From positions 116,916,653-116,980,652 of the forward strand of contig OX578140.1 of NCBI GenBank assembly GCA_951213105.1: 64,000 nt of DNA, read 5' to 3'. This document shows positions 10,776 through 56,575 of this stretch, one piece after another (the first letter of the stretch is position 1; each line of letters opens with the position of its first letter). The notes beneath the pieces were generated by a model. The model made no database searches and was not told the DNA's origin. It was given only the letters and a program-made list of their open reading frames with translations. This DNA comes from Amaurobius ferox. Its lineage: Eukaryota > Arthropoda > Arachnida > Araneae > Amaurobiidae. The position numbers and the translations under genes are program-made.

Positions 10776-10970
10776 CTAGTTTTGCCTTTTAGGACAAAAG
10801 TCTTGATGGACGTAAACAAGTCTACCTTCAGAGAAAACTTTAAGACAGAGCCAACACATATGACATCTGCATTTCCAGCAAGTCATATGGTTACAGCCAC
10901 CATTCTTTTCAATGGGTGATGAACAAGATGGACACTGTTTCCTATTATTAAGGTCTTCTTGCATCCAAAT
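10776..10970 (-). CDS. Last exon: RING2 with catalytic cysteine, and stop
   Basis: A 195-nt exon (64 codons plus TAG) with acceptor TTTTTTTAAAG ending at 10971, phase 0. RING2 ligands are C13-x2-C16, C31, C34, C39 and C42, with the transfer cysteine expected at C26 in the GGCNHMTC motif. In HHARI and related RBR ligases the equivalent cysteine carries the ubiquitin thioester, so the ligase looks intact. The tail H55...C59 resembles the final zinc pair seen in DEAH12-type proteins. The protein ends 22 residues after the CWLC motif, as is usual for this group. Confidence 0.93.
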   Translation of the reverse strand: MWMQEDLNNRKQCPSCSSPIEKNGGCNHMTCWKCRCHMCWLCLKVFSEGRLVYVHQDFCPKRQN

Positions 10971-11331
10971 CTTTAAAAAAAGAAACACCTTTTAATATAT
11001 AATTATCAATTCATATTGAAGATTACATCTAGATTACATACAATTGATGTAATCTACATCATCCCAAGCAAATCTATAATCCAGTGATTGACGTGTATTG
11101 ACATCACATGAATATCCAGATGTTACTCCAGATACCATCTATAGATATACAGTAGATAGCCGTCTGGACGTAAAATGGATGTGCAATAGACATATACTGG
11201 ATCACCCATGTTACGTCTACTGCTCATCCATATTGACGTCCAATAGATATCCATATGGGCGCATAATGGATGTGCAATGGACGTGGAATGAATTATTCAG
11301 TTTATGTTCATACATCCATATTATTGGATTA
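10971..11331 (-). other. Intron sequence, no further gene
   Basis: Part of the last intron. It contains several near-repeats of 'ggatgtgcaat-gac-gt' type (11170-11290), such as ATGGATGTGCAATAGACATA and ATGGATGTGCAATGGACGTG, perhaps an old repeat of unknown class. Confidence 0.5.
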
Positions 11332-53900: not shown

Positions 53901-56575
53901 ACAAGAGTCTTAGTTGCAGTTATCGGTTTAGGATTTTGCTTTTGAATAGAAGTAGTACCAGTAATTGTGCCATTTTTATCTGTATTCTTACGAGGAGCCG
54001 CTGATATAAGTTCACATTTGAATTTATCTCCACTGTCTGTGCTCAAAGACATAAACTGAGGTAATGCAGAATCTGCACAACCAGAGGCAGTTTTATCATT
54101 TTTATCATGAACAAGAGTCTTAGTTGCAGTTATCGGTTTAGGATTTTGCTTTTGAATAGAAGTAGGACCAGTAATTGTGCCATTTTTATCTGTATTCTTA
54201 CGAGGAGCCGCTGATATAATTTCACATTTCGATTTATCTCCACTGTCTGTGCTCAAAGGCATAAACTGAGGTGATACATAATCTGCACAACTAGAGGCAG
54301 TTTTATCATTTTTATCATGAACAAAAGTCTTAGTTGCAGTTATCGGTTTAGGATTTTGCTTTTGAATAGAAGTAGTACCAGTAATTGTGCCATTTTTATC
54401 TGTATTCTTACGAGGAGCCGCTGATATAAGTTCACATTTGAATTTATCTCCACTGTCTGTGCTCAAAGACATAAACTGAGGTAATGCAGAATCTGCACAA
54501 CCAGAGGCAGTTTTATCATTTTTATCATGAACAAGAGTCTTAGTTGCAGTTATCGGTTTAGGATTTTGCTTTTGAATAGAAGTAGTACCAGTAATTGTGC
54601 CATTTTTATCTGTATTCTTACGAGGAGCCGCTGATATAAGTTCACATTTGAATTTATCTCCACTGTCTGTGATCAAAGACATAAACTGAGGTAATGCAGA
54701 ATCTGCACAACCAGAGGCAGTTTTATCATTTTTATCATGAACAAGAGTCTTAGTTGCAGTTATCGGTTTAGGATTTTGCTTTTGAATAGAAGTAGGACCA
54801 GTAATTGTGCCATTTTTATCTGTATTCTTACGAGGAGCCGCTGATATAAGTTCACATTTGAATTTATCTCCACTGTCTGTGCTCAAAGACATAAACTGAG
54901 GTAATGCAGAATCTGCACAACCAGAGGCAGTTTTATCATTTTTATCATGAACAAGAGTCTTAGTTGCAGTTATCGGTTTAGGATTTTGCTTTTGAATAGA
55001 AGTAGTACCAGTAATTGTGCCATTTTTATCTGTATTCTTACGAGGAGCCGCTGATATAAGTTCACATTTGAATTTATCTCCACTGTCTGTGCTCAAAGAC
55101 ATAAACTGAGGTAATGCAGAATCTGCACAACCAGAGGCAGTTTTATCATTTTTATCATGAACAAGAGTCTTAGTTGCAGTTATCGGTTTAGGATTTTGCT
55201 TTTGAATAGAAGTAGTACCAGTAATTGTGCCATTTTTATCTGTATTCTTACGAGGAGCCGCTGATATAAGTTCACATTTGAATTTATCTCCACTGTCTGT
55301 GCTCAAAGACATAAACTGAGGTAATGCAGAATCTGCACAACCAGAGGCAGTTTTATCATTTTTATCATGAACAAGAGTCTTAGTTGCAGTTATCGGTTTA
55401 GGATTTTGCTTTTGAATAGAAGTAGGACCAGTAATTGTGCCATTTTTATCTGTATTCTTACGAGGAGCCGCTGATATAAGTTCACATTTGAATTTATCTC
55501 CACTGTCTGTGCTCAAAGACATAAACTGAGGTAATGCAGAATCTGCACAACCAGAGGCAGTTTTATCATTTTTATCATGAACAAGAGTCTTAGTTGCAGT
55601 TATCGGTTTAGGATTTTGCTTTTGAATAGAAGTAGTACCAGTAATTGTGCCATTTTTATCTGTATTCTTACGAGGAGCCGCTGATATAAGTTCACATTTG
55701 AATTTATCTCCACTGTCTGTGCTCAAAGACATAAACTGAGGTAATGCAGAATCTGCACAACCAGAGGCAGTTTTATCATTTTTATCATGAACAAGAGTCT
55801 TAGTTGCAGTTATCGGTTTAGGATTTTGCTTTTGAATAGAAGTAGTACCAGTAATTGTGCCATTTTTATCTGTATTCTTACGAGGAGCCGCTGATATAAG
55901 TTCACATTTGAATTTATCTCCACTGTCTGTGCTCAAAGACATAAACTGAGGTAATGCAGAATCTGCACAACCAGAGGCAGTTTTATCATTTTTATCATGA
56001 ACAAGAGTCTTAGTTGCAGTTATCGGTTTAGGATTTTGCTTTTGAATAGAAGTAGGACCAGTAATTGTGCCATTTTTATCTGTATTCTTACGAGGAGCCG
56101 CTGATATAATTTCACATTTCGATTTATCTCCACTGTCTGTGCTCAAAGGCATAAACTGAGGTGATACATAATCTGCACAACTAGAGGCAGTTTTATCATT
56201 TTTATCATGAACAAGAGTCTTAGTTGCAGTTATCGGTTTAGGATTTTGCTTTTGAATAGAAGTAGGACTAGTAATTGTGCCATTTTTATCTGCATTTTTG
56301 TCAAATTCTTGTTTTAAAAGCAAGGAATTCGGGTTATTGTTAATTTTAGAATGTTGAAAATTCTCATCATCACGGTCGGAGTGAATACCATATGAGTTTG
56401 AAGTATTGCTTTCTTGGAAAGTATCAAAATTTCTATGTGTAGATAGTAGAGGAGAGCTTTTGTAGTGTCTCTTATTATAGATTTTTCTTTTAGAAATTTT
56501 CTCTTTCACTTGATTCTCAGGACTAGAACTAGTAGGTTCACCATAAGATGTTGGAAGATCCTTTTTCGAAGACAT
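50941..56575 (-). CDS. N-terminal coding exon with 23 tandem 70-residue repeats
   Basis: An open frame of 1895 codons runs from ATG at 56575 to a TAA at 50890-50888. A strong acceptor (TTTCTTTTAG) ends at 56578, two bases before the ATG, so a non-coding 5' exon probably lies upstream. After about 98 Ser/Lys/Asn-rich residues come 23 units of exactly 70 residues (210 bp), each starting near DKNGTIT and ending near SAAPRKNT. The last 200 or so residues are unique, with Asn/Gln/Pro/His-rich sequence. No catalytic domain is recognised; the composition suggests a disordered, phosphorylatable region. The unit length is a multiple of three and no copy carries a stop, so coding constraint is likely. 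This frame is the same as that of the helicase exon. Joining them needs removal of the TAA, here proposed as a short intron. Confidence 0.75.
51451..56300 (-). repeat. 210-bp coding tandem repeat, 23 copies
   Basis: The word CATTTTTATCTGTATTCTTA (plus strand) recurs every 210 bp from 51661 to 56071, and a variant at 56281. Most copies differ by only a few bases. A distinct unit type (CADYVSPQFMPLS, CEIISAA) appears at about 56101, 54211 and 52741, 9 and 7 units apart. Confidence 0.98.

Follow-up and report, generated by a model that had tools for sequence, protein, structure and literature searches.

We analysed a 64,000-nucleotide stretch of the Amaurobius ferox genome (hereafter the window; C11:116916653-116980652, in a genome of 3.56 Gb). 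A gene on its minus strand, running from 56575 to 10776, is copy B of three tandem sister copies, A, B and C. The window copy is probably one of three tandem fusions of a MARF1-type NYN-RRM N-terminus to a DEAH11/12-RBR body, with a stop codon ahead of the NYN domain and an active-site aspartate lost, so that its product, if translated, would be a nuclease-dead helicase-ligase. Sequence comparison indicates that the NYN-RRM-DEAH-RBR proteins form a real and conserved chelicerate family, apparently undescribed in the literature.

Domain order of the window copy

Copy B presents, in this order, an NYN domain, two RRM-like folds, a DEAH helicase, a KH domain and RING1-IBR-RING2. Its features are:

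45497-56575, minus strand: large exon, not open throughout, with a GTAAGT donor after 45497
50891-56575, minus strand: open frame ahead of the stop, beginning at ATG 56575, with an MSSKK start and a low-complexity region
51464-56296, minus strand: tandem array of a 210-bp unit repeated 23 times, in frame, 70 amino acids per unit, 98% matches
50888-50890, minus strand: in-frame TAA, at a site that is coding in copies A and C
50872-50940, minus strand: 69-nt GT...AG segment across the TAA, in frame, coding in the sister copies, a possible cryptic intron
50090-50533, minus strand: NYN (PIN-like) domain of MARF1 type, from sequence and fold matches; the Asp452-equivalent codon, 50228-50230, encodes Asn
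49832-50062, minus strand: RRM1-like fold in the predicted structure, in the same relative position as the RRM after NYN in MARF1-type proteins
49469-49687, minus strand: second RRM-like fold, before the helicase, predicted with lower model confidence
48638-49081, minus strand: DEAH helicase domain 1, with AETGSGKST, DEAHER and SAT motifs (Pfam)
48116-48484, minus strand: helicase C domain, with a QRRGRAGR motif (Pfam)
47240-47464, minus strand: OB-fold, NTP-binding associated (Pfam)
45497-45661, minus strand: KH_DEAH11 at the end of the large exon (Pfam), followed by the GTAAGT donor
37074-37286, minus strand: RING1 exon (ligands, splice borders, sister copies)
32728-32948, minus strand: exon with the end of RING1 and the first part of the IBR (ligands, splice borders, sister copies)
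13031-13109, minus strand: exon with the second part of the IBR (ligands, splice borders, sister copies)
10776-10970, minus strand: last exon, with RING2, the transfer cysteine codon (10893-10895) and the stop TAG (ligands, splice borders, sister copies)

The earlier note had read the large exon as a single open one, which is contradicted by the in-frame TAA at 50890-50888: two adjoining ORFs lie in the same minus-strand frame, 56590-50891 and 50887-45482, with the TAA between them. The modules of copy B form one continuous frame downstream of the TAA, and the frame is broken upstream of NYN. The downstream ORF encodes 1801 amino acids with Pfam matches to NYN (23.6 bits, just below the 24.2 cut-off), DEAD, Helicase_C, HA2_N (20.3, just under the cut-off of 21), OB and KH_DEAH11 (52.1 bits, cut-off 27, ahead of the RBR). 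These matches bear out the helicase proposed from the letters of the window, with its DEAH core, HA2/OB region and DEAH11-type KH domain. Four small exons 3’ of the large exon, with GT-AG borders and matching phases, encode a complete RBR that ends at TAG 10776. RING1, IBR and RING2 have their full set of ligands, including the transfer cysteine, as had been claimed; the best solved relative of the RBR is ARIH2 (E 6.2e-18), and the last loop of the copy B RING1 is longer than in the outside fusions.

The region between NYN and the helicase was examined in a predicted structure of a 480-residue slice (mean pLDDT 71.8). NYN occupies slice residues 31-178, and folds of beta-alpha-beta-beta-alpha-beta order follow at 188-264 and 313-385; the ten-residue mean pLDDT is 74-94 for NYN, 78-90 for the greater part of the first RRM-like fold and about 49-81 for the second. 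Of the RRM claimed by the earlier note, what stands is this fold order, found twice in the predicted structure. Pfam finds no RRM in the 1801-residue ORF at E 0.1, and the match of the region to U1A/U2B'' among solved structures is weak (E 0.3-0.6). In the PDB fold search, the hits after the MARF1 NYN chains include many tandem-RRM proteins at E around 1e-5, but with low TM-scores (0.2-0.35), and designed ferredoxin folds match alongside them. The RRM label is therefore a weak one, resting on fold order in a model more than on a close match.

A fusion family in spiders and a horseshoe crab

The joining of a MARF1-type N-terminus to a DEAH12-type body, the central proposal of the earlier note, proved right, and it is a conserved gene form: the NYN-DEAH-RBR architecture is present in 11 distinct database proteins, 10 from spiders and one from a horseshoe crab. 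In a search with 637 hits, PF01936 was found in 10 of the best 120. These were the top ten hits, from ten spider species (P0002-P0011), with 44-48% identity and 98-100% query coverage, and all ten have NYN, DEAD, Helicase_C, OB, KH_DEAH11 and IBR as listed domains. Beyond these ten, no NYN was found in DEAH11/12 matches among the best 120 of the 637 hits. The search scored the 7989 best candidates and the horseshoe crab protein P0139 is not among the matches listed, so that absence of NYN elsewhere is weak evidence. P0139 (Tachypleus tridentatus, LOC143240523) came from a second search, with the NYN-less C9 relative of this genome as query: NYN was present in 7 of the best 120 of 7703 hits, namely six of the same spiders and Tachypleus. 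The same query also shows a separate group of spider proteins lacking NYN.

Trees were computed for 40 rows and for 23 of those 40, the latter with mollusc, brachiopod and cnidarian proteins as the root. Spider proteins fall into two clades, each with support 100, one of fusions and one of proteins lacking NYN, and the copies of this genome fall inside the spider clades. In the rooted 23-row tree, both spider clades and Tachypleus together form one side (100), with Tachypleus outside both spider clades (87); the 40-row tree leaves its placement unresolved. A single clade of all fusions is rejected in the 23-row tree (p-AU 0.029). We infer that the fusion was gained once, early, and that the C9 type lost its NYN, although there may instead have been two gains.

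Whether the architecture is already well described, a possibility that the earlier note had raised against its own reading, has a divided answer. It is present in databases, where 5 of the 11 fusion proteins (5 of the 10 spider proteins) carry the automatic name “DEAH12”. Among titles and the beginnings of abstracts in the open-licence literature, we found no paper on the NYN-RRM-DEAH-RBR combination. The family is easily overlooked, several entries being named “DEAH12, chloroplastic”, a misleading automatic name, or left unnamed.

The NYN domain and its active site

The MARF1-like NYN fold is supported both by sequence and by structure. In a sequence search against solved structures, the MARF1 NYN 6fdl is the best match (E 3.6e-24), and in a fold search of the predicted structure against the PDB, MARF1 structures come out on top (E 4e-14, TM to target 0.91-0.93). 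A bacterial-type NYN or a chance match is out, since MARF1 structures rank first by both routes. With the NYN-RRM1 part of copy A as query, seven hits were obtained, five of them spider fusions and two NYN-plus-LOTUS (MARF1-type) proteins.

The active site of human MARF1 is given in PMC6294520 as Asp358, 426, 427 and 452, where mutation of 426/427 is stated to lower nuclease activity strongly. We compared these positions in an alignment of 16 rows, from which P0003 was left out as the script did not match its motif. Equivalents of Asp358 and Asp426 are kept in all 16 rows. At 427, an acidic residue is confined to the two MARF1-type rows; the other 14 rows, all fusion rows among them, have a non-acidic one. 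At 452, 14 of the 16 rows have Asp, including copy A and 10 outside fusions, and the remaining two, copies B and C, have Asn. Two residues past this position, copy B has a further Asn, as do the MARF1-type rows. The acidic site of MARF1 as a whole is thus incomplete in copy B, and cutting of RNA, which the earlier note had allowed for, is unlikely for this copy: with Asn in place of Asp452, its NYN is predicted to be nuclease-dead. Because the Asp427 equivalent is non-acidic in all aligned fusion rows, even intact members of the family may be weak nucleases.

Sister copies and the in-frame stop

The sister copies were found by a search of the spider’s own genome. Copy A, about 80 kb from the window copy, is intact, with an open frame of 2270 amino acids from its ATG. 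Copy C also has an open frame, with ATA instead of ATG at the conserved start. The MSS start of copy B recurs in the spider proteins P0002 and P0011, and in copies A, B and C an acceptor-like ttag lies two bases upstream of the start position.

The TAA of copy B sits between the 23-unit repeat region and NYN, ahead of every enzymatic domain. We read it as a lesion of copy B rather than as part of an ordinary intron, because copies A and C are both coding at this site and because P0002 and P0011 have a PLLSFQR-like stretch resembling the TAA-spanning segment. Since the TAA would block translation of the fused protein, the first ATG would yield a repeat protein only; the next in-frame ATG after it is at 50620, still ahead of NYN. 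The frame before the TAA consists mostly of the array region, in place of which the translations of copies A and C show roughly one unit-like stretch. The array (51464-56296) is a coding minisatellite and resembles a recent expansion within an open frame. A Pfam match of the repeat ORF to Tli3 was dropped, as no single stretch passes by itself.

Three further loci of this genome were noted. L014 (C11:116898273-116899808) is a fourth, decayed sister copy, whose NYN-RRM1 stretch of 233 codons is still open, keeps the Asp452 equivalent and has a dN/dS of 0.25 against copy A; elsewhere, its MSS stretch is in another frame and its helicase part contains stops. In an own-genome search for NYN, made exon by exon, the matches listed were copy A and L014; an ordinary MARF1 gene was not among them, but copies B and C were missed too. 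L017 (C21:67332092-67337251) and L018 (C21:67227896-67233247) are DEAH11-like relatives, still similar to the helicase and KH regions, in which a scripted search for helicase motif I, written as (A/G)ETG(S/C)GK(S/T)T, gave no match; RBR-like exons, some with weak E-values, lie downstream. Their sequences make them possible pseudo-helicase ubiquitin ligases.

Constraint and possible decay in the tandem copies

We counted changes at positions invariant in the 11 outside fusions, a set that includes P0006, P0007 and P0008, whose models lack parts of the RBR in the alignment. There are 38 such positions in NYN, 140 in the helicase and 41 in the RBR, and the numbers changed, in that order, are 10, 4 and 1 for copy B, 4, 2 and 3 for copy A, and 10, 4 and 4 for copy C. 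The excess of NYN over helicase changes is significant in each of B and C (Fisher 3.6e-5) and less marked in A (0.02), and the number of NYN changes in B or C does not differ significantly from that in A (Fisher 0.14). Four NYN changes, that of the Asp452 equivalent among them, are common to B and C and absent from A; this aspartate was therefore likely lost before B and C split. Between B and C, dN/dS in NYN is 0.48, with dN (0.18) below dS (0.37; approximate z 2.6), so that the domain does not behave as simply free of constraint and may retain its fold, perhaps in an RNA-binding role.

Along exon 1, the silent divergence of B from C is uneven: dS reaches 0.37-0.41 in the linker and NYN and is 0.03-0.24 elsewhere. 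This mosaic suggests gene conversion between the copies, which makes it unsafe to date their divergence.

These data bear on whether copy B codes for a protein at all. It is possible, though in our view less likely, that copy B is a young pseudogene in which the TAA ended coding and the rest has not yet decayed, the work being done by A and perhaps C. The in-frame TAA ahead of all enzymatic domains, the expanded array and the NYN changes would all fit such a history, as would the clear decay of L014 around its NYN-RRM1 and the missing ATG at the conserved start of copy C. On the other side, dN/dS is low (0.16-0.18 in the helicase, 0.23-0.30 in the RBR), and copy B has no further stop, either over the 1797 codons that follow the TAA or over its 235-codon RBR, all of which limits how old a loss of coding could be. 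In neutral simulations (200 runs per divergence level), a mean of 21 stops and a minimum of 9 were gained at 0.11 substitutions per site, and the minimum was 4 at 0.05 and 0 at 0.02. Since some runs at 0.02 substitutions per site had no stop, a recent loss of coding stays compatible with the data.

Splicing could also bypass the stop, with the 69-nt GT-AG segment (50940-50872) removed and translation starting from ATG 56575. The GT and AG are in the same phase and 69 is 3 x 23, so that the frame would be retained. Yet the segment is coding in A and C, its PLLSFQR-like stretch is present in P0002 and P0011, and an intron of 69 nt would look anomalous beside the four supported introns, which by the exon coordinates measure 2.1-19.6 kb; we regard this reading as improbable.

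RBR exons across the tandem copies

The splice sites proposed for the five exons, with their GT-AG borders and phases, were confirmed, and both tandem sister copies repeat them for the four small exons each. The four RBR exons occur in order and on the same strand in all three copies, the weakest match being the second IBR exon of copy A (E 0.002). Splice phases match across A, B and C, and the spliced RBR frames are open. In the NYN-less C9 relative, the three exons examined share the exon order and phases. This repetition of order and phase across the tandem copies is comparative evidence, the best stand-in for RNA, for counting the RBR exons as part of this gene, and it bears on the counter-case named in the earlier note, transcripts ending ahead of RING1. 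That an NYN-DEAH gene and an unrelated neighbouring RBR gene were read together, as introns of up to 19.6 kb with mobile-element-like debris might suggest, is a reading we reject as very unlikely, given the repeated exon order and the database models of 2269-2462 amino acids that hold both halves.

The introns themselves contain two remnants on the minus strand. A transposase-like one with an internal duplication (39828-40697), which we take to be of Tc1/mariner type, lies between the large exon and RING1 and matches DDE_3 at 24.5 bits, below the Pfam cut-off of 28.6. Retroelement-like debris (22187-24971) lies in the long intron that splits the IBR; its frame at 24231-24971 has a CCHC-type zinc-knuckle pattern and a weak SCAN match below the Pfam cut-off, and its other frames have no Pfam match.

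Discussion

The established activities of these modules are RNA binding for RRM and KH domains, RNP remodelling for DEAH helicases, endoribonuclease cleavage for the NYN of MARF1, and transfer of ubiquitin via the RING2 cysteine for RBR ligases. On this basis, intact members of the family (copy A and the spider fusions) would bind RNA through their RRM and KH domains and cut it with NYN; stripping or remodelling of the RNP would fall to the DEAH motor, and ubiquitylation of proteins on that RNA to the RBR. By analogy, these members could act as RNA-surveillance or defence factors; both the substrates and the surveillance role are guesses. For copy B, our preferred reading remains that of a nuclease-dead helicase-ligase. 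Its translation would require either a start downstream of the TAA, at ATG 50620, or removal of the 69-nt cryptic intron, and its product would at most combine RNA binding, remodelling and ubiquitylation, without cutting.

The proteins for RNA decay, RNP remodelling and ubiquitin tagging are normally separate and have to come together. We tentatively suggest, as an idea about which we have reservations, that these fusions are a one-chain machine for cutting, unwinding and ubiquitylation on RNA, kept since before spiders and horseshoe crabs split, and that tandem duplication here, with two copies nuclease-dead, has divided the tasks of cutting and tagging among the copies. One protein with all three modules would permit a direct test of how RNA cleavage and ubiquitylation are coupled. 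By analogy with MARF1, the fusion may be a factor for transposon or virus control in chelicerates; MARF1 limits retrotransposon expression in mouse oocytes, as stated in PMC6294520.

Compared with known systems, the body of the fusion is that of the DEAH11/DEAH12-type helicase-RBR ligases, with the DEAH core, HA2/OB, KH_DEAH11 and C-terminal RING1-IBR-RING2 in the same order. This “Helicase” RBR subfamily is described in PMC2904391 as known from plants and animals. The difference lies in the MARF1-type NYN and RRM1, absent from the non-chelicerate and the spider C9-type matches listed. With MARF1, the fusion shares NYN followed by an RRM-like stretch. Unlike MARF1, the window ORF and three spider proteins show no LOTUS (OST-HTH) domain in Pfam scans, the DEAH-RBR body standing in its place, and the Asp452 equivalent is missing from copies B and C. 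The direct relatives are the spider proteins P0002-P0011 and Tachypleus P0139, which share the architecture from end to end; the window copy differs from them by its in-frame TAA, its array of 23 units and the loss of the NYN aspartate.
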